Below are positions 1,245-42,608 of a stretch of 46,151 bases of DNA, one piece after another. Below the pieces are notes generated by a model that made no database searches, was not told where the DNA came from, and saw only the letters and a program-made list of their open reading frames with translations. The translations under genes and the position numbers were made by a program. Source of the DNA: an uncultured Pseudomonadota bacterium (GTDB taxonomy: Bacteria > Myxococcota_A > UBA796 > SXON01); the NCBI GenBank assembly GCA_903921785.1, contig CAIXRH010000091.1, positions 1 to 46,151 of the forward strand, written 5' to 3'. Positions within the stretch are counted from its first letter, which is position 1. Every line of letters starts with the position of its first letter.

Positions 1245-1290
1245 CCGGGGCGACGGCTATCACCGAACCGCCCGCGGGACATCCGGCGGG

Positions 1291-2112
1291 CTACCGGACG
1301 AGGTCGGAGATCCCCCGCGGGCACACCTTCTCCTCCTCGTACGACCACCGCATCACGCCGGTGAGGGAGGTGTAGGTGATCGTGGGGTCGAGGTCCAGCG
1401 AGTAGTCCCAGAGGAAGTCGTCTACGTAGATGCCCCAGTCGGTGGCGACCTGGCCGTAGCTGTCGATGGTGCCGCCCAGCGCCACGCCCTGGAGCTTCAC
1501 CAGGACGCCTTCGTACGGCTCCCAATCGCTGGGCGGCGCGTTGAGCTTCAGCACGCTGACGCTCCCGCTCCCGGTGACCGTGATGGAGCTCGCGATCACC
1601 TCCGTCTCGTCGTAGTATTCCTGGGCGACGCCGATCACGGTCACCTTGTCTCCAGCCTCCACCGCCGGGAAGGTGCCGTTGGAGTACACGCGGACCCCGG
1701 CCCACTCGCCGCCACCGGCGTCCTGCACGAAGACCGAGCCGTCGGTGGCCGGGCCCGTGGTGACGACGACGCCCTTGAGCGTCACGTCGCCGGTGACGCC
1801 GCTGGCCTGCACGTCGTAGACGGTGGCCGTCGTGGAGGTGCCGGTGTCGGTCCCGGTGTCCTTGCCGGTGTCGGTTCCGGTGTCGGTTCCGGTGTCCTTT
1901 CCGGTGTCGTTCCCGGTGTCCTTGCCCGTGTCGTGGCTGTTCCCGGTGTCGTACGCCGAGCTGCTGTCGTCCGTGGAAGCGCTGTCGGCGGCCACACAGT
2001 CGCCGGCCGTGTTCATGACGCCGGTGTCACACGTGGGGGGCTCGCCGACGCAGGCGAACGACGCGGCGAGGGTGACGAGCGTGCTCAGGACGACGGGGGA
2101 GGTGACGCGCAT
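1291..2112 (-). CDS. DTG-linker lipoprotein with OB-fold-like domain
   Basis: A 273-aa secreted protein. ATG at 2110-2112 is chosen because it begins a signal peptide (MRVTSPVVLSTLVTLAASFAC); the frame is open far upstream but without sense. Cys at about residue 21 is a plausible lipidation site, although the -3 residue is not Leu. Residues about 45-90 are a low-complexity linker of Asp-Thr-Gly repeats. The C-terminal 170 residues (about 95-270) resemble the nuclease-associated OB-fold/DUF5689 type: VTLKGVVVTTG, then FVQDAGGGEWAGVRVY, then GDKVTVIGVAQEYYDETEV. No nuclease domain accompanies it. It sits between lpxD and fabZ, where these operons normally have no lipoprotein. The fold call is from pattern resemblance; the function is unknown. 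Confidence 0.8.
   Translation of the reverse strand: MRVTSPVVLSTLVTLAASFACVGEPPTCDTGVMNTAGDCVAADSASTDDSSSAYDTGNSHDTGKDTGNDTGKDTGTDTGTDTGKDTGTDTGTSTTATVYDVQASGVTGDVTLKGVVVTTGPATDGSVFVQDAGGGEWAGVRVYSNGTFPAVEAGDKVTVIGVAQEYYDETEVIASSITVTGSGSVSVLKLNAPPSDWEPYEGVLVKLQGVALGGTIDSYGQVATDWGIYVDDFLWDYSLDLDPTITYTSLTGVMRWSYEEEKVCPRGISDLVR
1841..1950 (-). repeat. tandem hexamer/12-mer repeat encoding Asp-Thr-Gly linker
   Basis: Imperfect tandem array of GGTGTC-type units on the plus strand (GACACC on the coding strand), encoding runs of D-T-G separated by K, N or T. It lies in frame within the lipoprotein gene. Because units are multiples of three, copy-number change would lengthen or shorten the linker without shifting the frame. 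Such linkers are common in myxobacterial lipoproteins and probably act as flexible spacers from the membrane. Confidence 0.8.
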
Positions 2113-2146
2113 GCGGAACGCGTAGCGCGTCGTCGACCTTTTCGCA

Positions 2147-2168
2147 GCCGCCGCGCCGCGACGGCGGC
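2147..2168 (-). terminator. GC hairpin between lpxD and the OB-fold lipoprotein gene
   Basis: Perfect 7-bp stem (GCCGCCG/CGGCGGC) with an 8-nt loop in the 155-bp gap after lpxD. No U-tract follows on the minus strand, so termination would be weak at best; it may attenuate the operon or stabilise the upstream mRNA. Confidence 0.3.
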
Positions 2169-2244
2169 CATGCGTGCGTCCCCTCCGGTTTCCCTCACGA
2201 TCGCGTCGCGATGCGCCGCGGACCGTGCCCGGGGAAGGCGGCGC

Positions 2245-2265
2245 GTGATCCGCGCATCGCCCAGA
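2245..2265. repeat. 21-bp intergenic repeat, copy A
   Basis: A 21-bp element starting GTGATCCGCG and ending ATCGCCCAGA, with 20/21 bases matching a second copy at 11178-11198. This copy ends 2 bp from the lpxD stop codon and carries an imperfect GATCCGCGCATC palindrome. Function unknown: possibly a regulator site or a small dispersed repeat. Confidence 0.5.
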
Positions 2266-2267
2266 CC

Positions 2268-3266
2268 CTACTTGTCTTCGAGCTTCTTCTCGATCGCGGC
2301 CACCCGCTTGAGCAGCTCGGGGAGCTCGCGGGAGGCGGCCGCGAACCGCAACCACTCCCGATGCTCCATCGCCGGCGAGCCCGTACGTTTCTCCCCTGCG
2401 GGCACGTCGCCGGTGACCATGCTGTTGGCACCCACCGTGACGCCATCGCCCACGTCCAGGTGGCCGAGCAGCAGCGTCCGCGCGGCCATCGTGACGCCGG
2501 TGCCGGTGCGCGTGCTCCCCGCGACCGCGCTGTACGCCACGAGCACGTTGTGGGCGCCGATCTCCGCGCCATGGCCGATCTGCACGAGGTTGTCGAACTT
2601 CGAGCCGGTGCCGACGGTCGTGTCGCCCATCGCGGCGCGGTCGACGCAGCTGTTCGCCCCGATCTCCACGTCGTCGCCGAGGACGGCGCGTCCGGTCTGG
2701 AGAATCTTCACCAGCCCCGCCTTCGTGGGGACGAAGCCGAAGCCTTCGCCGCCGATCACCGCGCCGGGGTTGAGCATCACCCGGTCGCCGACGACGCAGC
2801 CGTCCATGACCACGCTTCCCGCCATCAACAGACAGTCGCGGCCGACGCTTGCCCCGGGTCCCACGTAGACATGGGGCTGGAGAACCGAGCCTGCGCCGAC
2901 GCTCGCGCCCGCGCCGACGTAGGCGAAGGCCATCACCGTCGCGCCCGTGGCCTCCCCCTCCACGACCGCGAGCGGGTGGATGCCCGCGGATGGACGGGGC
3001 GCCGGGTTGAACAAGCTGAGGGCCTTGGCGAACGCCAGATAGGGGTCCACGCATCGCACGACCGTGCGGCCATGCGCGGGCTCGCTGGAGGAGACGAGTA
3101 CGGCGCCCGCACGGCTCTTCCGGAAGAGCGTGGCGTAACGCCGGTTCGCGAGGAACGAGAGCTGGTCGGGACCCGCCTCTTCGAGGCCGGCGAGCCCGCG
3201 TACCTCCAGCCCCGCGTCGCCCTCGACGACGCCCCCGACCGCGGCGGCGACCTCGCCGAGGCGCAT
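2268..3266 (-). CDS. lpxD: UDP-3-O-acylglucosamine N-acyltransferase LpxD
   Basis: A 332-aa left-handed beta-helix acyltransferase. It transfers a 3-hydroxyacyl chain from ACP to UDP-3-O-acyl-glucosamine, the third step of lipid A synthesis. The N-terminal uridine-binding domain (about 1-100, with DQLSFLANRRY) is followed by hexapeptide repeats (about 100-290) rich in [LIV]-G-x4 turns, then an alpha-helical C-terminus (KRVAAIEKKLEDK) as in the family. The catalytic-His segment DNLVQIGHGAEIG is present. The start is 3 bp from the skp stop, so the two are co-transcribed. The presence of lpxD and fabZ supports an LPS-bearing outer membrane. Confidence 0.97.
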   Translation of the reverse strand: MRLGEVAAAVGGVVEGDAGLEVRGLAGLEEAGPDQLSFLANRRYATLFRKSRAGAVLVSSSEPAHGRTVVRCVDPYLAFAKALSLFNPAPRPSAGIHPLAVVEGEATGATVMAFAYVGAGASVGAGSVLQPHVYVGPGASVGRDCLLMAGSVVMDGCVVGDRVMLNPGAVIGGEGFGFVPTKAGLVKILQTGRAVLGDDVEIGANSCVDRAAMGDTTVGTGSKFDNLVQIGHGAEIGAHNVLVAYSAVAGSTRTGTGVTMAARTLLLGHLDVGDGVTVGANSMVTGDVPAGEKRTGSPAMEHREWLRFAAASRELPELLKRVAAIEKKLEDK

Positions 3267-3269
3267 CGG

Positions 3270-3803
3270 CTACTTCTTCGGCGGAGTGGCTGGATTCGCG
3301 GCGTTGTAGCGCTTGATCAGCTCATCCGTGATGTCGATGCCGTCGCTCCAGTACACCACGCCGCCCTCGGTCGCCTCGAGCACCACGGTGTACCCCTTCT
3401 CCTGGCCGATCGCGACGGCGATCTTCTTCATCTTGTCGATGAAGTCCTGCATCGCGGCGTAGTACGCCTGCTGCATCTCCCCCTCGTAGCGGGAGTAGGT
3501 CTGCTGGAACTCCACCTGGGACTTCATGAAGTCCTCTTCCTTGGCCTTGCGGGCGGAGTCGCTGAGGATGGTGGACTGCTTCTCGAGCTCGGTCTTCTTG
3601 GTTTCGAGCGCCGTCTGCATCTTCTCGATCGCTGCCTTGCGATCTCCGTACATCGACTCGAGCTTCGCCCGCACCCCGGCGGCCTCGTTGACCTCGTTGA
3701 GCGCGCGCTGGAAGTCGACCACCGCGACCTTGACGTCGGCCGCCGCGGCGAGGCCGCTGAAGCCGAACATGAACGTGAGGAGGACGAAGAACCGCTTGAA
3801 CAT
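3270..3803 (-). CDS. skp: OmpH/Skp-family periplasmic chaperone
   Basis: A 177-aa protein with a clear Sec signal peptide (MFKRFFVLLTFMFGFSGLAAAA). The mature part begins with the family strand VKVAVVDFQRALNE, continues as a long charged alpha-helical tentacle (about 45-130, heptad-like with KKTELEKQ), and closes with the C-terminal beta segment GYTVVLEATEGGVVYWSDG. Skp trimers hold unfolded outer-membrane proteins on their way to BamA, which is encoded directly upstream in the same operon. The Lys-rich Pro-containing tail (ATPPKK) is typical of delta-lineage members. The start is chosen by the signal peptide. Confidence 0.94.
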   Translation of the reverse strand: MFKRFFVLLTFMFGFSGLAAAADVKVAVVDFQRALNEVNEAAGVRAKLESMYGDRKAAIEKMQTALETKKTELEKQSTILSDSARKAKEEDFMKSQVEFQQTYSRYEGEMQQAYYAAMQDFIDKMKKIAVAIGQEKGYTVVLEATEGGVVYWSDGIDITDELIKRYNAANPATPPKK

Positions 3804-3823
3804 GAAATGCTCCCGGAACGCGA

Positions 3824-6433
3824 CTAGAACGCGCTCCCGATGGTGAAGTCGAAGACGCCCTTACGCTCGTCCGGCAGCGGCTCCAGCGGGAACCCCCACT
3901 CGAAGCGCAGCGGGCCGATGGGGCTGAACCAACGTACGCCGAAGCCGACGGACGTGCGTAGATCGGTGAGGTCCATGTTGCCGTTGCCTTCGACGTCGCC
4001 GAAGGTGTTTCCGGCGTCGAAGAAGGTGACGAGCGAGATGCCCGCGGACTTGATGACCGGGGACTCGACCTCAAATTGGCTGATGAGGGTCTCGGTGCCG
4101 CCGACCACCAGGCGATCATCGGCCGCGGCGGGATCGTCGCTCCCGACAAACGAAGTGCGGGGGATCGTGTAGTCACGGTAGCCGGTGGCGCGCACCGAGG
4201 GGCCGAGGGAGTAGGGCTCGAACCCGCGGATACTGAGGATGCCACCCGCGCGATACCGGTGGATGTACGGGATGATGCTGCCGTCGGTGCTCTGCACGTG
4301 CCCCGCGGAGACGTTCACCTTGAAGACAAGCCAGTCGTCCTTCACCAGGGGCTGGTAGAAGCGGAAGTTGGCCTTCGTCTCCCAGTAGTTGAAGTCGCCG
4401 CCGAAGATCTCCAGGTTCTCCTTGTCGTTGAGCCGCAGGCCGCCGGCGAGCTCCGTGGACAGGGTGAACTTCACGCCGCGCGTGGCCTGGATGCGGTTGT
4501 TGCGCTTGTCGATGTCGAGCGAGATGCCGCCGGAGGAGGTGACGCCGTTGCGGTACAGCTCGCCGCCGTAGAGGCGCTCCTTGTACTCGTCCAGCGAGAG
4601 CAGGCCGTTGTCTTCGAGGGTGTAGGAGAGGGCGAGGCGGATGTCGTCCCGCTTGTCGAGGTACCGGCCGATCTCAAAGAGGCCGCCGCGCTGGTACTCG
4701 TTCTCGATGTAGTCGCGCTGGTTGTAGAACCCGCTCACGCGCATGGTCCAGCGGGAGTCGAGGAAGTAGGGGTCATAGAAGTCGATGTTGGCGGTCTGGG
4801 TGGGCTTGGAGATGTTGCCCGCGATGGACACCACCCAGCCGAGGCCGAAGAAGTTCGATTTCTGGATGTTGGCGGTCAAGAGGAAGCTGTCGACGGAGCT
4901 GAAACCAGCCCCGACCGTGAAGCTTCCCGTGGGGCGCTCGGACACGTCGACGTTCATGTCGAGCGTACGCTCCTCCGACGCCCGCGGCGTGGAGATGTTG
5001 ACGGTCTCGAAGAAGCCGAGCCGCTCGAGCCGCTCCCGGGCTTCCCGGATCCGGCTGCCCTGGTAGTCCTCGCCTTCGTTGATCGGGATCTCCCGGCGGA
5101 CCACCTTGTCGAACGTGGGGTCGTTGCCGGTGATGTTGATGTGCCCGATCTTCATCTTCTCGCCCTTCTCGATGTCGAACGTGAGGTCGACGACGCCGGA
5201 GTCGGGGTCCGGGGAGGGGAGGGGGACGATGTTGGCGAAGGCGTAGCCCTGGTCGCCGTAGAGGTCGCTCACCCGCTGGGTGACGCCCTGCATGGTGGTG
5301 ATCTTGAACCAGTCGCCGGTCTTGAGCGGCTGGTTCTGGCCGGAGAAGTCGAAGAGGCGACGCTCGACCTTGGGGGTCCACGCCTCATCGAGCTTCACGC
5401 CCGCCTTCTTGTCACGCTCGAAGGCCTCTTCCACGTCACGGAGGTCCTTGCCCTCGGCGAGCGCGCGCACGGCGCCTTCGGTGAGGCCCTCCTCGGGCTT
5501 GAAGTCGCCCTTGAGGATCAACTTCCCAATCTTGTACCGGGGGCCCTCGTTGACGTGGATGGTGATGAAGATGTGGCGCTTGTCGGGCGAGAGGAAGACC
5601 TTGGGCTCATCCACCTGGGCTTCCACGTAGCCCTCTTCCAGGAGCACCGACCGGACGACGTACACGTCGTTCTGGAGGTTCTCCTCGATGAAGTTGCCCG
5701 TGGAGGTGAGCCACGGGACGATGCCGCCTTCCTTGGTCTGGAGGTAGCGCTTGATCTTCGCGTCGGGCACGCCTTCGTTGCCCGTGATGTCGATCCGCTG
5801 GACGATGACCTTGCGGTTCTCCGTGATCTTGAATTCGAGGTCCACCATGCCGCCGCCGGCGGCGGTGAACACCGGCTCCACGTTCACCAGGTAGAAGCCC
5901 TTCTCCAGGTACTTGTCCCGGATCGTGCGCACGTTCTGCGCCACCTTCTGGTCCGACGGCACGCTCAGGGGGACGATGTCCAGCGCCTCCTTGAGGTCCT
6001 CTTCCTTGATCTTCTTGTTTCCCGAGAAGCGGACCTCGCGGATCGCGGGCTTCTCGGCGATGACGAAGGTGACCACCGTGCCGAGGTCGGTCGGGGTGTA
6101 GCGCACGACGACGTCGGAGACGTAGCCCGTGCGCCAGATGGCCTTGACGTCCCGCTGGACCTTCCAGGCTTCGAGGCGATCGCCGGTGTGGAGCCCCACG
6201 GCGTCGAGGATGGCGGCCTCCTCCACGTTGCGCAGGCCCTCCACCTTCACCTGGGAGACGGTGCCGACGGCGAAGAGCGGAGCGCCGGGTTCATCAATCC
6301 CGGAGGCGCCGAACGCGAGCGGGGCTGCGGTGGGCGCTGCGGCTGCCGGCGCCGGGCCCGGATCGGGGACCTCGCCCTCACCGGCAAACGCCACGGCGGG
6401 GAAGAGGGCCACGAGCGCCAGGAGCGACCTCAC
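3824..6433 (-). CDS. bamA: outer membrane assembly factor BamA
   Basis: An 869-aa Omp85 protein, the central insertase for outer-membrane beta-barrels. The start is GTG at 6431-6433, overlapping the lolD stop as GTGA and opening a signal peptide (to about residue 17). A Pro/Ala linker (18-50) precedes five POTRA domains at about 56-129, 130-206, 207-297, 298-426 and 427-502. The 16-strand barrel (about 503-869) carries the IRGFEPYSLGP loop-6 motif and ends in an aromatic (GSAF), as outer-membrane proteins do. POTRA4 is unusually long (about 125 residues) because of a charged insertion at about 318-370. Skp follows 20 bp downstream. Confidence 0.97.
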   Translation of the reverse strand: MRSLLALVALFPAVAFAGEGEVPDPGPAPAAAAPTAAPLAFGASGIDEPGAPLFAVGTVSQVKVEGLRNVEEAAILDAVGLHTGDRLEAWKVQRDVKAIWRTGYVSDVVVRYTPTDLGTVVTFVIAEKPAIREVRFSGNKKIKEEDLKEALDIVPLSVPSDQKVAQNVRTIRDKYLEKGFYLVNVEPVFTAAGGGMVDLEFKITENRKVIVQRIDITGNEGVPDAKIKRYLQTKEGGIVPWLTSTGNFIEENLQNDVYVVRSVLLEEGYVEAQVDEPKVFLSPDKRHIFITIHVNEGPRYKIGKLILKGDFKPEEGLTEGAVRALAEGKDLRDVEEAFERDKKAGVKLDEAWTPKVERRLFDFSGQNQPLKTGDWFKITTMQGVTQRVSDLYGDQGYAFANIVPLPSPDPDSGVVDLTFDIEKGEKMKIGHINITGNDPTFDKVVRREIPINEGEDYQGSRIREARERLERLGFFETVNISTPRASEERTLDMNVDVSERPTGSFTVGAGFSSVDSFLLTANIQKSNFFGLGWVVSIAGNISKPTQTANIDFYDPYFLDSRWTMRVSGFYNQRDYIENEYQRGGLFEIGRYLDKRDDIRLALSYTLEDNGLLSLDEYKERLYGGELYRNGVTSSGGISLDIDKRNNRIQATRGVKFTLSTELAGGLRLNDKENLEIFGGDFNYWETKANFRFYQPLVKDDWLVFKVNVSAGHVQSTDGSIIPYIHRYRAGGILSIRGFEPYSLGPSVRATGYRDYTIPRTSFVGSDDPAAADDRLVVGGTETLISQFEVESPVIKSAGISLVTFFDAGNTFGDVEGNGNMDLTDLRTSVGFGVRWFSPIGPLRFEWGFPLEPLPDERKGVFDFTIGSAF

Positions 6434-7116
6434 GCCGCCTCCTGGAAGGCGCCGTCGACCACGCGGAGGATCCGTGGGAAGCGGCGAGCGAGCTCCATGG
6501 AGTGCGTGACGACGACCAGGGTGGCGCCGCCCTCGTTGCGGTTGAGCTCGAGCAGGAGGGTCATCACCTCGTCCGCGGTGTGAGGGTCGAGGTTGCCGGT
6601 GGGCTCGTCCGCGAGGAGGAGGCCGGGCTTGAGGAGGAGGGCGCGCGCGATGGCGACGCGCTGCTGTTCGCCGCCGCTGAGCTCGCCGGGCTTGTGATCC
6701 AGGCGGTGGCCGAGGCCGACGCGCCGGAGCGCCTCGGTGGCCCGCTCGCGCGCTTCGCGCTTGGGCACCCGCGCGATGAGGGCGGGGATCGCCACATTGT
6801 CCACCGCCGAGTGATCGGGGAGGAGGTGGTGGAACTGGAAGATGAAGCCGACGGAGCGGTTGCGGAACGTGTCGAGCGCAGCCTGGGGGCGGCCGTAGAG
6901 CGGCGCGCCGTCGACGTGGACGGAGCCGCCGGTGGGCGCTTCGAGGCCGCCGAGGAGGTGCAGGAAGGTGGACTTCCCCGATCCGCTCTGGCCCACGATC
7001 GCGACGCACTCGCCGGCCGCAAGCGACAGATCGGCCCCGCGGAGCACCTCGATCGCCGCACCCCCCTTCCGGAAGGTACGACTGACGCCCCGAACTTCAA
7101 TGGCCACGCCCATCAT
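6430..7116 (-). CDS. lolD: lipoprotein-releasing ABC transporter ATPase LolD
   Basis: A 228-aa ABC ATPase that powers release of mature lipoproteins from the inner membrane to the LolA carrier. The Walker A (GQSGSGKST), signature ([15 protein letters not shown]), Walker B (LLLADEPTG) and H-loop (VVVTH) are all intact, and the [16 protein letters not shown]-loop region is the MacB/LolD type. Start ATG at 7114-7116 overlaps the lolC stop (ATGA); a second ATG follows immediately (7111-7113). It is followed by bamA with a GTGA overlap. The abundance of lipoprotein genes in this window fits the role. Confidence 0.95.
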
Positions 7117-8402
7117 TCGTACCGCAGCCCATCCACCGGCGGGAGGCGGGCCGCCCGGGTGGAGGGGTAGAGCGTGGCCAAAAAGCACACGAACGCCGCG
7201 CCCACGGCGACGACGGCCACCGTTTGGGGCACGATCACCACCGGGAGCGAGTCGAGGTAGTACACGTTGGTGTCGAGGGCGTAATGGTAGCCAGAGAGGA
7301 ACGCGCAGCCCGCTAACCCAAGGCCCACCCCGAGGCTGGTACCGACCAGCCCGACGACCGTTCCTTCGAGCACGAAGACCGAGGTGATCATCCGGGTGGT
7401 GGCGCCCATGGCGCGGAGAATGGAGATCTCGCGGGCTCGGGTGATGACCATCACGATGAGGTTGGTGACGATCCCCAACGCGGCGACGCTGACGATCTGG
7501 CCGAGGATGAGCCCCATCACCCACTTTTCCATCGCCAGGGCCTTGAACAGCGCCTCGTTCATCGTGAGCCAGTTCTTGGAGTAGTAGAGCGGCCCGGTGG
7601 CCTGCTCCACCCGCATGGAGACCTCGGGGACCTCCCAGATGAGGTCCTCCTGCACCCGCGCTTCGAGCCCGGTGGCGGCGTTGGGGAGCTGCATGAACTC
7701 CTGCGCATCGGCCAGGGCGATGTAGCTCCACTTGGTGTCGTACTCGAACATCCCGGTGTGGGTGAGCGCCGCCACCCGGTACGCACGCGAGGAAGGGATC
7801 GGCATCCCGAACGGGCCCATCCCGCCGCCGACCGGGTTGATGATGAGCAGTTGCTCGCCCGGGTGGACCTTCAGCTGGCCCGCCAGGGTGTCGCCCAGGA
7901 TGATGCCCGGGAGCGCCTCGGCGCCGGCCGGTACCGGCGGGGCGTGCAGCGTGGTGACCAGCGCGCGACGCGCTTCGGGGGTCGAGGGCGCGCTGTCGGG
8001 CCCGAGGCGGATGTCGCTGGCGATGTCGTTGACGTTGAGCGCCCGCGCGGGGTCGATGCCCTTGAGGATCGCGCCGGCGACCCCGCCCGGCGTCTTGAGC
8101 ATGACCTCGCTGTAGGTGAACGGCGTGACCGCCGTGATCCCGGGCACGGCCTCCACCTTCTGGACGAGCTCGTCGGGCTCTTCCACGGGACCGCCGTAGG
8201 AGAGCACCAGCAGGTGTGCCTGATTGCCGAGGATCTTCTTCCTCAGCTCGATCTCGAAGCCCTCCATCACCGACAGCACGATGATGAGCACCGCCACGCC
8301 CACGGTGACGCCCACCATGGACAAGAGCGCGATCAGCGAGATCCCGGCGTCCTGCCGCCGGGATCGCAGGTGGCTGAGCGCGATGAGGAGCTCGAGGTCC
8401 AT
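7113..8402 (-). CDS. lolC: lipoprotein-releasing permease LolC/LolE
   Basis: A 429-aa FtsX-type permease. TM1 is at about 24-46 (ISLIALLSMVGVTVGVAVLI), a large periplasmic domain spans about 47-300, and three C-terminal TMs follow (about 305-330, 345-375, 390-415). The ILRAMGAT coupling-helix motif that contacts LolD is present. Only one permease gene is seen, so the transporter is probably a homodimer of a combined LolC/E (LolF-like) subunit, as in many non-enteric bacteria. It is directly coupled to lolD. The protein ends in the usual [17 protein letters not shown]. Confidence 0.94.
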   Translation of the reverse strand: MDLELLIALSHLRSRRQDAGISLIALLSMVGVTVGVAVLIIVLSVMEGFEIELRKKILGNQAHLLVLSYGGPVEEPDELVQKVEAVPGITAVTPFTYSEVMLKTPGGVAGAILKGIDPARALNVNDIASDIRLGPDSAPSTPEARRALVTTLHAPPVPAGAEALPGIILGDTLAGQLKVHPGEQLLIINPVGGGMGPFGMPIPSSRAYRVAALTHTGMFEYDTKWSYIALADAQEFMQLPNAATGLEARVQEDLIWEVPEVSMRVEQATGPLYYSKNWLTMNEALFKALAMEKWVMGLILGQIVSVAALGIVTNLIVMVITRAREISILRAMGATTRMITSVFVLEGTVVGLVGTSLGVGLGLAGCAFLSGYHYALDTNVYYLDSLPVVIVPQTVAVVAVGAAFVCFLATLYPSTRAARLPPVDGLRYE

Positions 8403-18681: not shown

Positions 18682-20304
18682 GTGCCCGACCCCGCCGTGC
18701 CCGCCCCGTCTCCCCGCCTGTTCACCCGGGCGAACCTCCCGGCGATCGCGGCGGCGATCTTCTCGGGCGTCGTGCTGCGGCTGGTGAGTCCGCCGATCGG
18801 GCTGCACTGGCTGCACTGGTTCAGCTTCGTTCCGCTGCTGGTGGCGGCCGCGGCCCCGGATGGTCGTCCGGTGAGCGCCCACCCGCTCGGGCAGTTTTGG
18901 GCGGCGCTCCGGGGCCGGGCGTTCAAGCTCGGGTACCTCACCGGCTTCTCCGGCGTCTTCGTCCTCTTCTTCTGGCTCGCCCAGACGATCGACCTGTTCA
19001 GCAACATCCCGCTGGTGCTCGCCGCGCTGCTCGTGGCGTTGTTCGCCGCGGTCTTCGGGCTGCCCTACGGGTTCCTCGCGTCGGCGGTGGCGCCGCTGCG
19101 CGCGCGCATGGGCGGCTGGTGGGTCGTGGCCTTCCCCACGGTGTGGGTGGCGGCGGAATTCGCCCAGCCCGCCTTGTTCCCGTACTATCAGGGAGTCGGG
19201 CAGTACCGGAACCCGTACACCTGGCAGCTCGCGAGCGTTTTTGGCGCCTACGGGGTGAGCTGGCTCCTCCTCTGCACCAACGCCGCGTTGGCCGAGGTGG
19301 TGCTGGCGCGGAAGGAAGGTCGCCCCTTCCCCGTCGCGCCGTTCGCCGCGGCCATCGGGCTCTTCGTGGCCAACCTCGGCTTCGGCTATTGGCGGTTCAA
19401 CGCGGTGGAGGCGGAGCTCGCGAAGGCGCCGGTGGTGCGGATCTCCGAGCTGCAGCAGGGCGTCAGCATGGTCAAGCGCATCGAGGACCGCGGCACAGAC
19501 GTGCTGCGCTCCTGGATGAAGTCGACCGCGAAGGTGACGGGCGACAAGCCCGACCTCGTGGTCTGGCCCGAAGGCTCGATCGGCTACAACCCGACGGAGA
19601 AGGAGCTCCAGCCGATCCTCGGCGGCATGGCCAAACGCGGCGACTTCGCGTTCCTCCTCGGCGGCGGCACCCACGGCCCCGACCCGGCGGACCCGAGCAA
19701 ACACGCCGCGTGGAACAGCGTGTACCTCTTCGGGCGAGATGGCGAGGTGAAAGCTCGCTATGACAAGATGGTGCCGATGCCGTTCGGCGAGTACCTGCCC
19801 TGGCCGGCCTCCTACCTCAAGCCCTACATCCAGGGCGTGGGGAGCTTCCGCGCGGGCACCGAGCCCACGGTGTTCTACACCGACAAGTTCAGCTTCACCG
19901 TTCCGATCTGCTACGAAGCGATCCTCGAGAAGCAGATGCGCACCCTCGCCATCGCCGACGCCTACGTGAGCGTGACCAACGACGGCTGGTTCGGGGACAC
20001 CGCGGCTCCCTGGCAGCACGCCATGCTCGCCGCCGCCTACGCGGTGGAGCTGGGGCGGCCGATGATCCGCATCGCCTACACCGGCGTGTCGATGGTCGTG
20101 GAGCCCCACGGGGTGATCAAGTACGAGACGCAGCCGTACACCGACGTGGCGAAGGTCGTGGAGCTCCGGGTGCCGAAGGGCGGCCTGGCCACGCCGTACC
20201 AGACCTGGGGTCGATGGTTCCCGCACCTGTGCGCGGCGGTCACCGTCCTGCTCGCGAGCCTGATCGCGGCGGGCCGTGTCACACCGCGCCGGTCGCGGGC
20301 GTAA
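18682..20304 (+). CDS. lnt: apolipoprotein N-acyltransferase Lnt
   Basis: A 540-aa product. It adds the third acyl chain to lipoproteins in the inner membrane, preparing them for Lol export. There are about six N-terminal TM helices (20-240) and a nitrilase-like periplasmic domain (245-505). The catalytic triad is visible: Glu297 in VVWPEGS, Lys362 in YDKMVPMPFGEYLP and Cys410 in PICYEAI. A last TM (about 510-532) and a basic tail follow. The start is GTG. Its position ahead of an ECF sigma gene is unusual: the stop is 17 bp before that gene, so the sigma operon can be read through from lnt. Confidence 0.95.
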   Translation: MPDPAVPAPSPRLFTRANLPAIAAAIFSGVVLRLVSPPIGLHWLHWFSFVPLLVAAAAPDGRPVSAHPLGQFWAALRGRAFKLGYLTGFSGVFVLFFWLAQTIDLFSNIPLVLAALLVALFAAVFGLPYGFLASAVAPLRARMGGWWVVAFPTVWVAAEFAQPALFPYYQGVGQYRNPYTWQLASVFGAYGVSWLLLCTNAALAEVVLARKEGRPFPVAPFAAAIGLFVANLGFGYWRFNAVEAELAKAPVVRISELQQGVSMVKRIEDRGTDVLRSWMKSTAKVTGDKPDLVVWPEGSIGYNPTEKELQPILGGMAKRGDFAFLLGGGTHGPDPADPSKHAAWNSVYLFGRDGEVKARYDKMVPMPFGEYLPWPASYLKPYIQGVGSFRAGTEPTVFYTDKFSFTVPICYEAILEKQMRTLAIADAYVSVTNDGWFGDTAAPWQHAMLAAAYAVELGRPMIRIAYTGVSMVVEPHGVIKYETQPYTDVAKVVELRVPKGGLATPYQTWGRWFPHLCAAVTVLLASLIAAGRVTPRRSRA

Positions 20305-20321: not shown

Positions 20322-20843
20322 GTGGCACGCCCGCAAACCGACGAGGAGCTGATGGACGCGGTCCGAGATGGCAACGACGCGGCGTACATGACGCTGTTCG
20401 AGCGTCATCGGGCTTCGCTCTACGGGTATGCCCTGAGGATGACCCGTCGCCCCGAGGTGGCGGACGACGTCTTCCAGGAGACGTTCCTGCGCGTGCACCG
20501 CGCCCGTACCACCTGGGCGAGCCACCAGGGCTCCTTCCGCTCGTGGTTGTTTCGCATCGCCACCAACACCATCCGGGACCGCGCTCGGCAGGCGGCCCGC
20601 CGGCCCGAGGTGCTCGACGACACGTTCGAGCCCAGCCGCAGCACGACCCCGAGCGACCGCATCATGCTCGAGCGGGCGCTGGCCCAGCTCCCCGAGAACC
20701 TGCGGGACGCCTTCGTGCTCACCGCGGTGATGGGCATGGACCACAACGAGGTCGCCGCGGCCCTCGACATCACCCCTGACAACGCCCGGGCCCGGGTCTC
20801 ACGCGCCCGCACGCGCTTGCGCGAACTGCTGGAGGTCTCGTGA
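20322..20843 (+). CDS. ECF-type RNA polymerase sigma factor
   Basis: A 173-aa product. GTG at 20322 is chosen because a GGAG ribosome-binding site lies 5 bases upstream and the family helix follows at once (VARPQTDEELMDAVRDG). Region 2 (about 15-85) has LFERHRASLYGYALRMT, ADDVFQETFLRVHRA and the FRSWLFRIATNTIRDRAR -10-recognition helix. Region 4 (about 110-170) has LPENLRDAFVLTAVMGM and an HTH (NEVAAALDITPDNARARVSR). No N-terminal region 1. It overlaps the next gene by 4 bp. ECF factors are normally silenced by a co-encoded membrane anti-sigma factor, matching that next gene. Confidence 0.94.
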   Translation: MARPQTDEELMDAVRDGNDAAYMTLFERHRASLYGYALRMTRRPEVADDVFQETFLRVHRARTTWASHQGSFRSWLFRIATNTIRDRARQAARRPEVLDDTFEPSRSTTPSDRIMLERALAQLPENLRDAFVLTAVMGMDHNEVAAALDITPDNARARVSRARTRLRELLEVS

Positions 20844-21376
20844 CCGACCAGGAGTTCGACGCCCGCTTCGGCGATCTCGGCCCGATCGAGCCGCCGGAGC
20901 TGGTCGTGCGCCGCACGGTCGCGGCGTACCAGACGGAGCGCCGCCGCGGCGCCGTCCGCGTGCGGATCTTCGCCGTCGGCGGGATGGCGCTGATGGCCGC
21001 CCTGTCGCTGATGGTGGTGTCGGGCCCGCCCGACCGCGGCGACCCCTCCACGCTCGTCGAGCGCGGCTCCGGCGCGGTGCTCCCGGGGGTCGACGTGAAG
21101 GTCGCCGTGCGTCACGCGGCCGGAACGACCGAGCGCTTCGCGACGAACCAGCGCTATGCTGCGGGAGACACCCTGATGTTCCGCGTCGCCGCCACCGCTC
21201 CCGCCGACCTGAAGCTCCTCCGCGAAGGCGTGGTTCTCTGGGCGGGCCACGTCAACGCCGGCGAGGTGGACCTGCCGGTGGGCTACACGCTCGAAGCGGG
21301 GGAGAGCGCGGCGCGCTTCGTGGTCGAGGGCGGCGCCGAGTCCATCACCGTGTACGTCCCCGCGGTGGCGCCATGA
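20840..21376 (+). CDS. probable single-pass membrane anti-sigma/sensor protein
   Basis: A 178-aa product. The start is GTG, overlapping the sigma factor stop (GTGA). A cytoplasmic N-terminus of about 40 residues ends in ERRRGAVRVR, followed by one TM helix (about 43-61, FAVGGMALMAALSLMVV) and a periplasmic beta domain (about 65-178) with RYAAGDTLMFRVAATAPADLK, reminiscent of DUF4384-type domains. The zinc anti-sigma motif (HxxxCxxC) is absent. The anti-sigma role is inferred from position and topology, not from a recognised domain. The stop overlaps the caspase gene (ATGA), so the three genes are translationally coupled. Confidence 0.75.
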   Translation: MTDQEFDARFGDLGPIEPPELVVRRTVAAYQTERRRGAVRVRIFAVGGMALMAALSLMVVSGPPDRGDPSTLVERGSGAVLPGVDVKVAVRHAAGTTERFATNQRYAAGDTLMFRVAATAPADLKLLREGVVLWAGHVNAGEVDLPVGYTLEAGESAARFVVEGGAESITVYVPAVAP

Positions 21377-22947
21377 TCCTCAGCCTCGTCGCTGGTGCGT
21401 TCGCGGGCGCGGTGGCGATCACGCCGGGCCCGGAGGATGCCTACAAACCCCGCCGGGTCGCCGTGCTCGTGGGCGTCGAGGACTACACCGATCCGCTGCT
21501 TCAGGGGCTCAAGTTCCCCGAGAAGGACGCGCGGGACCTCGGCGCCGTCCTCGGCTCGGTCGATGGGGGCGGGTTCGACCGGGTCTTCGTCATCTCCGGC
21601 CACGACGCCACCACGCGCGCCGGGCTGATGCACGCCCTGGAGGTCGCCACGGCGGACCTCCAGCGGGACGACACCTTCCTCCTCTACCTCTCCGGCCACG
21701 GCACCCTCGAGATCGACCCGGTGCAGGGCAGTGAGCTGTTCTTCCTCCCGTCCGACGGGCGTCTGGACGCGCCCGAGACCACCGGCCTGAAGGTGTCGGA
21801 CGTGGAGGAGCTCGTGCACGAGCTCCCAGCGCGCCGCCGGGTTTTGATCCTGGACACCTGCCACAACGGCCGGGCCGGGAGTCGCTCGGCCGTCAGCGCG
21901 CCCACCCAGCAGCTCATCAGCGGCTTCCGCGGCGAGCCCCCCGCGCCGCGCGGCGGGCACGACGTGAGCGAGTCCGAAGCCAGGCTGTACGCCGCCCAAT
22001 ATTGGCAGCCGGCGATGGAGGACCCCACCCTCCAGAACGGTGTCTACACCCACTTCCTCATCGATGCCCTCACCGGCGCGCGCAGCAAGGCCGACCTCGA
22101 CGAAGACGGCCTCGTCGACGTGATGGAGGCCCACCAGTACGCCCGCGACCGCACGATGACGTGGACCGGCGGGCTCCAGATGCCCCGCGCCGAGTACCGC
22201 ATCGTCGGCCGGGAAGAAATCTACCTCGGCGGCTCCTCCACCCTCCGCGGCGCGGCCGAGCGCGCGCTCATCGCCGCTTGCGATGCGGTGCTCGCCCGCG
22301 CCAGGCTGTTCGTGAACGGCACGGCACGCGGGGAGCTCCCCGGCGTCTACGCCCTGGACCCCGGCAGCTCCACCGTGGAGATCCAGGCCCCTGACGGGCG
22401 CACGCTTCTGAAGGAGCGGGTCACCGTCCGGGCCGGCGAGACCCTCCCCATCGAGCAGCTCCTCCGCCGTAAGGCGCCGTCCTTCGGGCTCCTCGGCGGG
22501 GTCGCGTACCACGGCGGCAACGAAGCGCTCCTCCCGCTCGGCGGCAGCCTCGAAGCGGTCTGGGGCAACCCGCTCCGGGTCGAAGGTCCCTGGCGCCCCG
22601 AGCTGCACGCCGCGGCGGACCTCTCGGCCGGCACCGACGCCGCCACCGCCGTCGACGAGACCACCGGCACCGTCAGCGCCGGCGTCGGCTTCGGGCCGAC
22701 GTTCGGTCCGGGCTGGCTCGCCGTCACTGCCGACGTCCACGACACCTGGCGCGCGAGCGAGTACGGCACCCAGGCCAACCTTGGGGCGGCCGGCGGGCTC
22801 ACCCTGGGCGTCGATCTCCAGCTCGACCCCCACCTCATGCTCAGCACCCGGCTCGAAGGGTGGGCGGGACCAGAGACCACCTGGTCGGGCCCCACCCTCG
22901 CGTACGGCGGCGCCTTGCGGGTCGGGATCTCCCGCTCGCTGAAGTAG
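21373..22947 (+). CDS. caspase-like (C14) protease fused to predicted outer-membrane barrel
   Basis: A 524-aa product with signal peptide MILSLVAGAFAGAVA. The caspase p20-like domain (about 25-285) has RRVAVLVGVEDYTD, catalytic His109 in YLSGHGT and catalytic Cys163 in LILDTCHNGR, followed by YAAQYWQPAMEDP and NGVYTHFLIDAL as in bacterial orthocaspases. An EF-hand-like DLDEDGLVDVMEAH (about 236-249) could bind calcium. A PEGA-like beta module (about 310-360) is followed by about 150 residues of alternating hydrophobic strands (GLLGGVAYHGG to YGGALRVGISRSLK), predicted to be a small beta-barrel. The protease would thus face the periplasm. Encoded with an ECF sigma and a probable anti-sigma factor. 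Confidence 0.88.
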   Translation: MILSLVAGAFAGAVAITPGPEDAYKPRRVAVLVGVEDYTDPLLQGLKFPEKDARDLGAVLGSVDGGGFDRVFVISGHDATTRAGLMHALEVATADLQRDDTFLLYLSGHGTLEIDPVQGSELFFLPSDGRLDAPETTGLKVSDVEELVHELPARRRVLILDTCHNGRAGSRSAVSAPTQQLISGFRGEPPAPRGGHDVSESEARLYAAQYWQPAMEDPTLQNGVYTHFLIDALTGARSKADLDEDGLVDVMEAHQYARDRTMTWTGGLQMPRAEYRIVGREEIYLGGSSTLRGAAERALIAACDAVLARARLFVNGTARGELPGVYALDPGSSTVEIQAPDGRTLLKERVTVRAGETLPIEQLLRRKAPSFGLLGGVAYHGGNEALLPLGGSLEAVWGNPLRVEGPWRPELHAAADLSAGTDAATAVDETTGTVSAGVGFGPTFGPGWLAVTADVHDTWRASEYGTQANLGAAGGLTLGVDLQLDPHLMLSTRLEGWAGPETTWSGPTLAYGGALRVGISRSLK

Positions 22948-22950
22948 GCG

Positions 22951-24489
22951 GTGCGGCAAGGCGCGTCAGGTTCGGCTACCATCGTGGTGGTGTCCCTGCT
23001 CCTCGCCCTCACCGCGTGCCACCCCCTCGCCCCCTGGCCGGTGGACGACGGCGGCGCGCCGCTCGACCAACGCATCACGGTCAGCCCGGGCACGGTGGAC
23101 TTCGGCTCGGTCTCGGTGAACGAGCAGGGGGAGGCGATCCGGATCTTGAAGGTGTACAACCTCGGGGAAGACACGGTCACCGTGACCGGGCAGGATGAGC
23201 CCATCGGTGACGACGGGGTCTTCCGGGTCGACGCCGGGCCGGTGCTCTCCCTGGAGCCGGGGGAGGAGCGCGAGCTCACGGTCACCTTCATCCCCGAGAC
23301 CGAGGGCGACTCGCTCGCGCGCCTGCGCTTCGATCCGGGATCGGAGGTGGTGGAGCTGCGCGGGTCGGGCACCGCGCCGGTCCTTCAGGTGCGCGACGTC
23401 GAGATCCCGGCGACTGTGCTCGGCTGTTCGGGGGTGGGGCAGGTCACCGTGGCCAATACCGGGAGCGAGCCGCTCTCGCTGGACGCCGGGATGTCCGGGG
23501 AGGGGTTCTCGGCGACCGGCTGGCCGCCGGAGGTGCCCGTGGGTGAAGAAGCCCAGATCGACGTCACCTTCACCCCGGGCGGCGGCGGCGAGTGGTCCGG
23601 GGTCCTCACCCTGACCACCAACGACCCCATGCAGCCCGAGGTTGCCGTCCAGGTGGACGCGCTGGGGTACGAAGGGGAGGGGGTGCGCGAGCGGTTCGTC
23701 TACGCGCCCGCGGCGCCGACCGACACCCTCGTGGTCGTGGAGGGGAACAGCTTCGCCGCCGACCCCCGGCTGGACGAGGCGCTGTCGGCCTACGCCGCGC
23801 GCGTCCACGACGCGTGGCTCGACGTCCAGCTCACGTCCCTGGGCAGCGGCAGCGCCTGTCCTGCTGATGTTCCGGCCTGGACGACCGCGGACGCGTCGGA
23901 GCTCGCCATCGCGAACGTGTTGAAACACGGGTTCGAAGCGCGCGGTGGCGCCTGGGACACCGACCTCGTCGGGCTGGTGGAGCGTGCCCTTTTTGAGACC
24001 GAGCCCGGCGGCTGCCTCGACGGGCTCCGCCGTGCGGGCGCGAGCCTCGACGTCGTGCTCGTCGCCGCGGACCCGCCCACCGAAGACGCCGTCGCGGCGT
24101 TCGCGGCCGTGGCTTCGGCGCTCCCCGACGGCACGCCGGTGCGGGTGAGCGCGCTGGTGCCCCGGTCCGGCGAGTGCGGCGACACCGACACCAGCTACGC
24201 CACGCTCGCCTCGACCTGGAGCGGCGTCGTCGGCGACCTCTGCGCCACCTCCTGGACCGCCGCCTTCGAGGCCTTCGCGGCGCTTCCGGTGATCCACGCG
24301 GAAGCCCGGTTCCCGCTCGCCGAGGTGCCGGTACCGTCGTCCATCGAGGTCTCCGCCGACGGCGCACCGTTCACGGGATGGAGCTGGGACGCCGCCGAGA
24401 ACACCATCGTGGTTCCCGCCGAGGACGCGCCCACCGTGGGCGCGGAGCTCACGGTCGACTACGTGTCCGCGGTGAGCTGCGGCGGATGA
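22951..24489 (+). CDS. lipoprotein with choice-of-anchor-D (ASH-like) domains and degenerate vWA-like half
   Basis: A 512-aa product, starting at GTG with lipobox ALTAC (Cys23). Two immunoglobulin-like repeats of the choice-of-anchor-D/ASH type occur at about 40-140 (TVDFGSVSVNEQGEAIRILKVYN) and 142-240 (PATVLGCSGVGQVTVANTG...LTLTTNDP). The second half (about 245-510) follows the layout of myxobacterial vWA lipoproteins, including the closing SIEVSADGAPFTGWSWDAAENTIVV and a final Cys. The expected MIDAS D-x-S-x-S is replaced by VVEGNSF, so metal-dependent binding is probably lost. It follows the caspase gene by 3 bp and may be in that operon. Confidence 0.82.
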   Translation: MRQGASGSATIVVVSLLLALTACHPLAPWPVDDGGAPLDQRITVSPGTVDFGSVSVNEQGEAIRILKVYNLGEDTVTVTGQDEPIGDDGVFRVDAGPVLSLEPGEERELTVTFIPETEGDSLARLRFDPGSEVVELRGSGTAPVLQVRDVEIPATVLGCSGVGQVTVANTGSEPLSLDAGMSGEGFSATGWPPEVPVGEEAQIDVTFTPGGGGEWSGVLTLTTNDPMQPEVAVQVDALGYEGEGVRERFVYAPAAPTDTLVVVEGNSFAADPRLDEALSAYAARVHDAWLDVQLTSLGSGSACPADVPAWTTADASELAIANVLKHGFEARGGAWDTDLVGLVERALFETEPGGCLDGLRRAGASLDVVLVAADPPTEDAVAAFAAVASALPDGTPVRVSALVPRSGECGDTDTSYATLASTWSGVVGDLCATSWTAAFEAFAALPVIHAEARFPLAEVPVPSSIEVSADGAPFTGWSWDAAENTIVVPAEDAPTVGAELTVDYVSAVSCGG

Positions 24490-25322: not shown

Positions 25323-25471
25323 TGGCTCTCGGCGATGGGTCTTGTCGTTCGGCGCCGACGGTGGCGGGTGCGGTGACGTGGCGGGTGACGCCACTGGCGG
25401 CGGGCGGAGCGGAGCGACCGCCTGTGGGCGGTGGCGGCAGGACCCAGGGGTGACCTCGCTTCCTCGCCGAC

Positions 25472-25543
25472 GGCGCCGCGCCCGCCGCGTCCGCCGACGA
25501 CCGAACCCCGCACTTCCGGGCGCCGCGTCTGGCGCGGCGAGCC
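25472..25543. repeat. 72-bp direct repeat, copy 2
   Basis: Second copy of the element at 25163-25234 in the same orientation, with its internal hairpin at 25521-25539. It ends 34 bp before the MopE-like gene start and may influence its expression. Confidence 0.85.
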
Positions 25544-25577
25544 ACCGCCGCCCGATCCAGGATATCCTCCCCGTCAG

Positions 25578-28327
25578 ATGTGGTTGTTCCTCGCCGGGTG
25601 TACCTTCGTGACCGATGCGGAATGGGCCGCTCGTACGCCTGCGTGCTCCACCGACGGCCTGTTCCTCGACCTCGACGGCGACGGCTACGGCCGGCAGGCT
25701 GCTCGCACCTGTGAGGAAGCGGCCGACGCCATCCCCACCAACGGCGACTGCGACGACGGAAACCCGGCGATCAACCCAGCAGCAGCTGAGGTCTGGTACG
25801 ACGGTATCGACGAAGACTGCGACGACCTCGACGACTACGACGCGGACAAGGACGGCTACACCAGCGCGCTGCACTCCGACGGCCCCGACTGTATGGACCA
25901 GCCGACCGACCCGGTTCCGACGAAGTTGGGCGGCGACTGCGAGGATCCCTCCGGGGCGCCGTCGCCCGAGCAGGTGCACCCCGGCGCTGGGGATGTGGCG
26001 TACGACGGGGTCGACATGGACTGCAGTGGCGGCACCGACTTCGACGGGGACCACGACGGGTACGCCACCTGCGACGGCGACTGCGACGACGCCGTCTCAA
26101 CCGTGAATCCGGGGGTCCCGGAGGTCTGGTACGACGGGATCGACCAGGACTGCGACGGCAACGACGGTGACAAGGACGAGGACGGCTACGTCGCCGAGGG
26201 CTACACCGGCGGCCTCCCCGTCGGGGCCCTCTCCGGCGACTGCGACGATGCGGAGGACACTACGCATCCGGGCGCCACCGACCTCTTCTACGACGGGGTC
26301 GACGCCGACTGCGCCGGCAATGACGACTACGACAAGGACGACGACGGGGAGGAGGATCCGAGAGGCGGCGGCGACGACTGCGACGACGAAGACCCCACGA
26401 TCAGCCCGCTGGAGACCGAAGACTGCGCCACCGCGTGGGACGACGACTGCGACGGTGCCACGGATGCGCTCAACGCGGTGGGTTGCTCCGCCTGGTACCT
26501 TGACGCGGACGGCGACGGCCTTGGCAGCGCCGCCTCGGTCTGCACTTGCGCGTCGAGCGGGGACTACCGCGCCGCGTCCGCGACCGACTGCGACGATGGC
26601 GACGCCGCCGTGACCATCCCGGTCTGGTACCTCGACGCGGACGGTGACGGCGCGGGTGTCCCCGACACCACGGCCGCCGCGTGCGCCGTGCCCGCCGGCT
26701 ACGCCGCGACGGACGACGACTGCGACGACGCCGAGCGCGCGACCTACCCGGGCGCCACCGAAGCCTGCGACACCGTCGACAGCGACTGCGATGGGGAGCT
26801 CAACGACGCCGACGCGCTCACCGGCTGCACCGAGTTCTACGCCGACGACGACGGGGACGCCTACGCGGGCGCCCGGAGCGAGTGCCTCTGCGTGGCAGAG
26901 GGCGACTACCTGTTCGCCGCCGAGGACGACTGCGACGACGCCGACGCGGGCGTCAACCCCGGCGCGGCCGAGGTGTGCAACGACGGCGCCGACGACGACT
27001 GCGACGGCGCACCGGGCGCCTGTTCGTTCGGGGGAGCGGTCACCACGGCCGATGCGTGGGGCGCCTGGTACGGCACCGCCGCCGGGGACGAGGCCGGCGG
27101 CGTGCTCCTCGCGGGGGGGATCTCGATGGCGACGGCCTCGACGAGCTGCTCACCGCGCTGCCCGGCTACGCGGGCGCCTCGGCGGACGGCCTGGTGGCCG
27201 TCATCCGCCCCACCGACGACATGGGGGCGGCCCTCGACGGCGTCACGTTCACGGTCGGCGCGGGCTCCGCGAACCTCGACTTCGGCGCCACGCTTGGCGC
27301 GCCCGGCGACCTCGACGGCGACGGTCACGGCGATGTGCTGCTCGGCTCGCCGTCCCTGGTGGGCGGCAGCTACGGGGAGCTGCGTCGGTTCACGGCGCTC
27401 GGCTCGGGCTACGTCTCGGCCACGTCGGCAGACCTCCTGGTGGAAGGCTCGGATGTTAGTCACGAGGTGCGCACCGCGGGCGGCGGCGCGGATGGCGACG
27501 GCAACGGCGTGGTCGACCTGCTGGTCGGGGACCCGGACAGCGCGGGTGGGTACGTTCGAGGGGTTCCCGCGGACCTCTCGGGTACCTGGGCGCTGAGCTC
27601 GGCCACCGCCTGGACGATCCAGGGCGAAGCCTCGAGCGACGGCTTCGGCGCCTCCATCACCGTGGCCGACGTCGATGGCGACGGCCTCTCCGACGCCGTG
27701 ATCGGCGCCTCCGGGGTGGACGGCGGCTACGGGGACGATGGCGCGGTCTACGTGCTCCTCGCGAGCTCCGCGCGCTGGTCGAGCGCGGCGAGCGACGCCG
27801 ACCTGATGTACACCCTCGCCTGCCCCAGCTGCGCGGCCGGCTCCGTCCCCGCCGTGGTCGCCGACTTCGATGGCGACGGTGCCGCCGAGCTGGCGTTCTC
27901 CTCCTCTCGAGCCAGCTACGGGGGCGTCTGGATCGTCCCCGGTACGCTCTCCGGCACCTGGTACGACGCGAGCAGCCTCGCCGAGGTTCGGATCCCCGAG
28001 CCCGGAGAAGGTCTGGGCACCTCCCTGGCCGCCGGGGACCTCGACGGCGACGGCGCCGTGGAGCTGGTGGTCGGCGCCCCGAAGGCCAACTCCGACGCGG
28101 GCGTCGCCTACGTCTTCGCCGGTCCCCTGGCCAGCGGCACGTACGGCACGTCGGCGGCTTCGGCGACGATCTCCCCGGCGTCGGCGTCGGGCGTCGGCTC
28201 GGCGGTCGCGGTGCTCGGGGACACGGACGGCGACGGCTACGGCGACCTCGCGATCGGCGCGGCTGGCGACGACACGGCGGGGAGCGCCGCGGGGGCGGTG
28301 TGGTTGTTCAGCGGCGGCGGGTACTGA
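25578..28327 (+). CDS. MopE-repeat / FG-GAP-repeat lipoprotein, frame broken at a G7 run
   Basis: ATG at 25578 gives lipobox MWLFLAGC (Cys8). The N-terminal half (to about residue 490) has eight units of the MopE-type metal-binding pattern, DCDD-x-D-x4-PGA-x-E-x-(C/W)-x-DG-x-D-x-DCDG, with WYLDADGDG calcium-loop-like segments. The C-terminal half has about six FG-GAP/integrin-like units (GDLDGDGLDELLTA, APGDLDGDGHGDVLLG, VADVDGDGLSDAVIGA and so on). The halves are in different frames. The first frame reads through the run at 27113-27119 and would stop at 27596; the sensible continuation is the -1 frame to 28327. A single extra G, or a -1 slip on the run, joins them. Probably surface-exposed and Ca-binding. 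Confidence 0.85.
27113..27119 (+). other. G7 run at the frame break (possible slippery site)
   Basis: In the zero frame the run reads gcG GGG GGG atc. A -1 slip on this heptamer makes the next codon GAT, giving LLAGG-DLDGDGLDEL, which exactly rejoins the FG-GAP repeats. Competing explanations are a missing G in the assembly, phase-variable run length, transcriptional slippage, or true gene decay. Confidence 0.7.
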
Positions 28328-42129: not shown

Positions 42130-42608
42130 CGCCGCACCACTAGCTCCGCGACGGTTGTCGTGTCAAGCTGGTCAGTCCAAAGAGGCTGTCCAAACGCCGA
42201 CCATGTCGCCGCACGTTCGTGGAGCAGCTCACGCCAGCGTGGAGCGAGCGGGCGCTGGGTTTCCGCGGTGAGTCGCGCCTCCAGCGTGGCCTCCGTCGCC
42301 ATGAGGACCACGACGGTCCATTCCGCGAGCAGTTGGCGGTTTTCCCCGCGGATCAGGGCGCCGCCGCCGAGGGCGATCACGCCGGGAGCGTGCACACGAG
42401 CCCGCAGCGCCTCCGTCTCGGCGTCGCGGAACGAGGCCTCGCCTTGCTCGCGGAACCAACGGGGGATGTCCCCGAGGTCCCGGTCGAGGTCGACGAACGG
42501 AACGCCGACCATTCCGGCGACCAGCCGCCCGACGGTGGACTTGCCGACGCCCATCGGCCCGCCCAGGGCGATGCGGGGCGGACCGTCGGGGCGGGGAAGA
42601 CCGTTCAC
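42105..42608 (-). CDS. aroK: shikimate kinase
   Basis: A 167-aa product. GTG at 42606-42608 overlaps the pilQ stop (GTGA). P-loop GGPMGVGKSTVG, the shikimate-binding DLDRDLG and RDAETEAL, the GGGALIRGEN loop (with the conserved GGG) and the lid (RPLAPRW) are present. It phosphorylates shikimate. The length is slightly short but complete. The 3' end overlaps aroB by 25 bp. Confidence 0.95.
   Translation of the reverse strand: MNGLPRPDGPPRIALGGPMGVGKSTVGRLVAGMVGVPFVDLDRDLGDIPRWFREQGEASFRDAETEALRARVHAPGVIALGGGALIRGENRQLLAEWTVVVLMATEATLEARLTAETQRPLAPRWRELLHERAATWSAFGQPLWTDQLDTTTVAELVVRRCRGERSR

Follow-up and report, generated by a model that had tools for sequence, protein, structure and literature searches.

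A sigma factor, anti-sigma factor and exported caspase operon with a shared basic-Gly motif: possible proteolytic control of an ECF sigma factor from the envelope

The stretch of DNA analysed, referred to below as the window, comprises 46,151 nucleotides of a contig (CAIXRH010000091.1) of an uncultured lake bacterium. It includes genes for an ECF sigma factor, a protein with one TM helix and an exported caspase, situated between lnt and a gene for an ASH-domain protein, with the following features:

18682..20304, + strand: lnt (apolipoprotein N-acyltransferase), conserved upstream neighbour (PF20154, PF00795)
20277..20303, + strand: TGTCACAC-N15-CGTA, predicted to be an autoregulated ECF promoter; conserved in orthologous loci, and here overlaps lnt at its 3' end
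20322..20843, + strand: ECF sigma factor gene, 173 aa, GTG start (PF04542 5.8e-19, PF08281 1.3e-12)
20840..21376, + strand: one-TM protein gene, 178 aa, most likely an anti-sigma factor from its position and its homology to zinc-motif anti-sigma orthologs, with a helix on the cytoplasmic side ahead of the TM
20966..21022, + strand: predicted TM helix, anti-sigma residues about 43-61 (hydropathy maximum; AlphaFold2 helix 20-58 and its end)
21062..21067, + strand: Arg75-Gly76, candidate cleavage site in the anti-sigma periplasmic linker, [R/K]-G in 26 of 26 orthologs
21089..21358, + strand: anti-sigma periplasmic beta-sandwich, residues 84-173 (AlphaFold2; weak DUF4384 similarity in four orthologs)
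21373..22947, + strand: exported caspase (Peptidase C14) gene with C-terminal barrel, 524 aa (PF00656 2.5e-12)
21697..21699, + strand: catalytic His109, shared by all 27 orthologs and aligned in every trio paralog
21859..21861, + strand: catalytic Cys163, shared by all 27 orthologs and aligned in every trio paralog
21928..21933, + strand: Arg186-Gly187, invariant in 27 of 27 orthologs, in the loop that follows the catalytic Cys; candidate site of self-processing
22093..22128, + strand: EF-hand-like loop D241-E252 (DLDEDGLVDVME), from the sequence, with similar loops elsewhere
22480..22938, + strand: predicted 8-strand outer-membrane barrel, caspase residues 370-522 (AlphaFold2, Foldseek, amphipathic strand excess)
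22984..24489 (start possibly 22951), + strand: ASH-domain putative lipoprotein, usual downstream neighbour (PF15780 1.5e-13)

A preliminary description of this DNA had noted three genes at 20322-22947 overlapping by 4 bp each, and there are indeed two 4-bp overlaps, with all three genes on the + strand. The first gene was also correctly recognized as an ECF sigma factor, with sigma-70 regions 2 and 4 (Sigma70_r2, 5.8e-19; Sigma70_r4_2, 1.3e-12) both above the Pfam cut-off in this short 173-aa protein. There is an alternative start at the ATG at 20352, with GAGGAG just before it, from which the leader of a transcript from the predicted promoter would have a more usual length. The long antisense open reading frames listed for this region are typical of GC-rich DNA and were left out as genes.

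The order lnt, sigma factor, one-TM protein, caspase is kept in every orthologous locus with enough contig, which argues that the arrangement is not due to chance and answers the earlier call to look for co-occurrence of the trio in relatives; the trio is conserved across several families of the order. With starts picked nearest to the junction, a 4-bp overlap between the sigma and one-TM genes fits 24 of 25 loci, and the remaining locus has a 1-bp overlap. The ASH-domain protein lies downstream of the caspase in most orthologous loci, and among those examined it was not found in L051 and L054-L057. Most genomes of the family have a caspase ortholog at 45-76% identity, as do members of several other families in the order, and the GenBank titles of the close matches are mostly those of lake 'Deltaproteobacteria' or 'Proteobacteria' MAGs. 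One contig titled as a Klebsiella pneumoniae MAG (L040, CAMBIK010000300.1) has a copy of the trio caspase at 72% identity, and this title is therefore probably wrong.

Elsewhere in the window, at 798-8402 (-) and 42605-46001 (-), there are envelope genes encoding FabA/Z-like, LpxD, Skp/OmpH, BamA, LolD-like ABC, FtsX-type permease and PilQ-type secretin proteins. The nearness of bamA to the trio was considered as evidence and set aside because it is not conserved, bamA being absent from the caspase contig in 13 of 13 relatives. A long gene rich in D-x-D-x-D-G repeats, at about 25431-28327, seems to change frame near 27056-27110, where the D-rich frame stops making sense and another frame takes up a plausible continuation, pointing to a frameshift or an assembly error.

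A predicted promoter of the form [TC]GTCACA...CGTA is found directly before the sigma gene in 24 of the 26 orthologous loci, with GTCACA and CGTA invariant there, and L058 and L059 have a near-match further upstream instead. In loci with a gap of 138-162 bp between lnt and the sigma gene this promoter falls outside lnt, whereas in the window it overlaps the lnt end. With TGTCACAC-N15-CGTA conserved before the sigma gene, the operon looks autoregulated. Read-through from lnt, for which RNA-seq had been proposed earlier, need not be invoked, because of this conserved ECF-type promoter at the lnt/sigma junction; no conserved promoter was evident upstream of lnt in the alignment.

The genome has only one other exact match to the promoter, located 55 bp before a gene for a putative lipoprotein with a weak CarboxypepD_reg-like match. 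This gene (L325 387-1445 (-), G000:C286) belongs to a family that spans the order and has several paralogs per genome. Upstream regions of 11 of the 27 readable family members, the L325 gene included, carry the promoter motif at at least 10 of 12 positions, a score reached by 2 of 300 shuffled sequences, and these members come from two genera. Other exact promoter matches in relatives are mostly near the control level, and two have no sensible gene behind them. These observations fit an autoregulated sigma/anti-sigma/caspase operon with at least one further target, as judged from sequence.

The one-TM protein lacks the H-x3-C-x2-C motif of zinc anti-sigma factors, as had been stated, and has no Pfam or NCBIfam match; Pfam shows no match to the RseA family. 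Orthologs at the same locus position in other families, L058 and L060, keep an N-terminal zinc-type motif (HLTGCDDC in L060 and a variant in L058), and about ten one-TM paralogs of sigma/one-TM/caspase trios have the canonical H-x3-C-x2-C. These orthologs and paralogs make it most likely that the window protein is an anti-sigma factor from which the zinc motif has been lost, in line with what was suggested previously. It also has traits of a membrane anti-sigma factor, namely the 4-bp overlap with the sigma gene and a single TM at 43-61, for which we infer an N-in topology. The AlphaFold2 model (mean pLDDT 89) consists of a short helix, a long helix running into the membrane, a linker (59-82) and a confident beta-sandwich (84-173), of which the linker has the lowest confidence and appears flexible. 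No significant Foldseek match was obtained with this model.

The product of the third gene had been proposed to be a caspase-like protease with His109 and Cys163 in its active site, and this is borne out by a PF00656 score of 47.4 bits against a cut-off of 21.4 and by the identity of both residues in 27 of 27 orthologs, the nearest caspase model in NCBIfam scoring below its own cut-off. Pfam assigns the domain to C14 and detects no CHAT or TPR, and the best Foldseek match of the caspase part is MALT1, with plant metacaspases matched too. The EF-hand-like segment previously pointed out, D241-E252, is real, yet similar loops are present in most of the caspases compared. In a subgroup of the caspases (L067-L070, L073, L074, L117) the Asp two residues before the catalytic Cys is replaced by Ala (LATCHSG); this subgroup still has the His-Cys pair and the trio context.

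Short signal-peptide-like N-termini occur throughout the caspase orthologs. In the AlphaFold2 model of the window protein the caspase domain is followed by a small beta domain (PEGA-like by eye) and eight long antiparallel strands, which in blocks of 10 residues have pLDDT values of 76-96, mostly 84-96, and match NspA (TM 0.70 on target), Ail, OmpA, OmpW and OmpX by Foldseek. A structure prediction of the C-terminus had been recommended in the preliminary description, and the outcome is a fold like that of solved outer-membrane barrels, not the soluble C-terminus that would have counted against the first reading. A simple score of our own for amphipathic strands lies above the mean of shuffled sequences in the C-terminus of every ortholog and of nearly every paralog examined, often by a small margin, and shows no such excess in the catalytic domain. 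The C-terminal aromatic beta-signal is absent from the window caspase, which ends SRSLK; some paralogs end YRF. The first suggestion, that the caspase is exported, carries a barrel and is coupled to a sigma factor of its own, is supported.

A basic residue followed by Gly is common to the anti-sigma linker and to the caspase loop. In the anti-sigma factor, Arg75-Gly76 lies about 13 residues from the membrane, on the flexible linker of low model confidence and away from the folded domain, and [R/K]-G is invariant here despite a mean column identity of 28%. Five different Arg codons are used at the Arg75 position, and Arg is exchanged for Lys twice among the 26 orthologs, which argues that the constraint acts on the protein. 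In the caspase, R186-G187 opens a low-confidence segment of the AlphaFold2 model.

The trio recurs as paralogs, with two more in the window genome (contigs C275 and C238). As an independent test of co-occurrence, the phylum was searched with an alignment of the paralog anti-sigma factors only, and 101 of the 237 phylum genomes sampled match a related anti-sigma factor. At the 90 anti-sigma loci read, which are the top of the hit list and not a random sample, a caspase lies directly downstream in 86 and a sigma factor upstream in 86. Among the 82 pairs whose caspase loop could be read, 61 linkers (6.3 expected by shuffling) and 72 loops (3.9 expected by shuffling) have R-x-[RK]-G, counts that come from related sequences and hence not from independent events. 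The consensus is similar in both, roughly [VT]-R-[LVT]-K-G, and the loop motif begins within about ten residues of the Cys. The P1 residue is Arg in both proteins of the window group and mostly Lys in both for the other two groups; pair by pair, covariation of P4-P2 between linker and caspase loop is not significant within the large group. The loop motif failed to extend to class families f7-f9: [RK]G stands in only about 4 of 14 caspase loops there, although all 14 readable linkers have [RK][GSA].

The linker motif is present in two anti-sigma homologs that have no caspase next to them; it is lacking in a lipoprotein of similar domain that stands with neither sigma factor nor caspase; and unrelated zinc anti-sigma factors without a caspase have [RK]G near the TM in 1 of 7, a small and non-homologous control. 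In L243 (2173-3654) the place of the caspase behind a sigma/anti-sigma pair of this type is taken by a protein-kinase-like gene, and VRTKG is retained in the anti-sigma factor.

On balance, and by a slight degree only, we think it probable that this autoregulated ECF sigma/anti-sigma/caspase operon signals from the envelope, the caspase cutting the anti-sigma linker and thereby freeing the sigma factor. In this model, a cut in the basic-Gly loop of the exported caspase itself (R186-G187), or a trigger acting on its barrel, would activate the enzyme, which would then cut the linker after R75 as a site-1 cut, much as DegS does on RseA. An M50 site-2 protease, of which the window genome encodes one (PF02163 1.8e-57, contig C221), would then free the sigma factor to transcribe its own operon and at least one lipoprotein gene. 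Support for this model as a whole comes from the conservation of the trio across the order, the zinc-type anti-sigma orthologs and paralogs, the conserved promoter and its occurrence at a lipoprotein gene, the motif shared by linker and loop, the flexibility of the linker, the 86 of 90 caspase neighbours, the presence of the M50 protease and the precedents described below. That the caspase might cleave the anti-sigma factor had been guessed at the outset, and the invariant linker site together with the same kind of motif in the caspase loop points the same way. The accompanying suggestion of an envelope-stress function is upheld in part: it fits the topology and the conserved lnt neighbour, while the role itself is something we infer.

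Against the model stand the scarcity of the loop motif in f7-f9, the two motif-bearing homologs that lack a neighbouring caspase and the lack of significant pair-level covariation. In addition, a caspase anchored by its barrel may fail to reach a site close to the inner membrane, and D161, to which analogy assigns a part in binding a basic P1 residue, is Ala in one caspase paralog group. A more speculative proposal, which we regard as rather doubtful, is that the caspase is a sentinel of outer-membrane assembly, making the site-1 cut in a family of ECF envelope-stress pathways that spans the phylum. Insertion of the barrel would park the protease far from the inner membrane; should outer-membrane or lipoprotein assembly fail, the unassembled caspase would stay periplasmic, self-activate at the basic-Gly loop and cut the anti-sigma linker.

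An alternative to cleavage by the caspase, which we consider unlikely but worth serious attention, is that the caspase is an output of the pathway, with another protease (for example of the DegS type) releasing the sigma factor and the caspase processing other envelope proteins; in that case [R/K]-G would have a structural role or be the target of that second enzyme. Being in the operon of an autoregulated promoter the caspase is made when the sigma factor is active, as expected of an output, and both the persistence of the motif in the two homologs without an adjacent caspase and the fact that the caspase-loop motif is not universal agree with this, although the position of [R/K]-G in a flexible linker outside the folded domain, the same R-x-K-G in the caspase loop of the large group and the almost constant association of this anti-sigma type with a caspase argue against it. 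Less probable still is that the linker acts as a pseudo-substrate that holds the caspase inactive at the membrane, such that the anti-sigma factor restrains both sigma factor and caspase and is normally uncut. A motif common to linker and loop fits competition for the active site as well as it fits cleavage, but substrate sites usually look like this one, with a conserved basic-Gly pair on a flexible linker, whereas inhibitors normally present a rigid loop. A module for regulated cell death or anti-phage defence, with the caspase killing the cell or serving as a defence effector under sigma control, is very improbable, for although a part in cell death is often proposed for prokaryotic caspases (PMC3501461) and PADLOC gives a generic caspase match (2.5e-8), the trio lies beside lnt in most genomes of the family, unlike patchy defence islands, its caspase is predicted to be exported to the envelope, and the conserved context has no toxin, nuclease, lysis or defence gene, so that the cell-death part of the preliminary description finds no support.

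The logic of cleavage by the caspase would be that of DegS, RseA and RseP in the E. coli sigma-E pathway, in which a periplasmic site-1 cut of a one-TM anti-sigma factor is followed by an M50 site-2 cut, but DegS is a serine PDZ protease of the inner membrane that senses the C-termini of outer-membrane proteins, whereas the protease proposed here is a caspase that would itself carry an outer-membrane barrel. In type III CRISPR, the SAVED-Lon protease CalpL, the anti-sigma factor CalpT and the sigma factor CalpS form a comparable set; CalpL differs from the window caspase in being a cytoplasmic Lon-type protease triggered by cyclic oligoadenylate. The three components take part together in a transcriptional response (PMC12751052). 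In Craspase (type III-E CRISPR), Csx29 cleaves Csx30, an inhibitor of an ECF sigma factor (PMC10028731), and the likeness lies in a caspase-fold protease directed against a protein that inhibits an ECF sigma factor (Csx29/Csx30/CASP-sigma). Csx29 is, however, a cytoplasmic TPR-CHAT protease on Cas7-11 with target RNA as the trigger, whereas the caspase of the window belongs to C14 and is, by prediction, exported and barrel-bearing, and its anti-sigma partner sits in the membrane. MALT1 cleaves at a hydrophobic-X-P/S-R consensus followed by G/A (PMC6125328), which LVPRG in the linkers of several anti-sigma orthologs fits, and it is the top Foldseek match of the caspase part; MALT1 is a eukaryotic cytosolic signalling protease, and this is a resemblance only, for which we claim no membership. 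An orthocaspase prefers sites after clusters of basic residues (PMC7935541).

Operons of a sigma-70 factor and a metacaspase were reported in 2012 from Myxococcus xanthus, Anaeromyxobacter, Haliangium, Sorangium, Ralstonia and Fibrobacter (Asplund-Samuelsson, PMC3501461) and resemble the window in having a sigma-70 factor and a caspase homolog in one operon. The accessible text of that report does not describe an intervening anti-sigma factor, a barrel, a promoter or a shared motif, and it puts forward no such mechanism; the anti-sigma factor, barrel, promoter and motif appear to be new. In the literature searched, which covers subscription journals only in part, we came across no account of a caspase with a barrel or of the motif common to linker and loop.

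For the roles and substrates of bacterial caspases, this trio family gives a named candidate substrate that can be tested with few mutants. R75-G76 is the candidate cleavage site and R186-G187 a likely place of self-processing, the promoter can serve as a reporter, and there is a conserved target gene. The pattern is widespread in the phylum, nearly all of the related anti-sigma copies examined adjoining a caspase, and if the proposed cleavage is true, proteolytic control of sigma factors would extend to envelope caspases, outside CRISPR.
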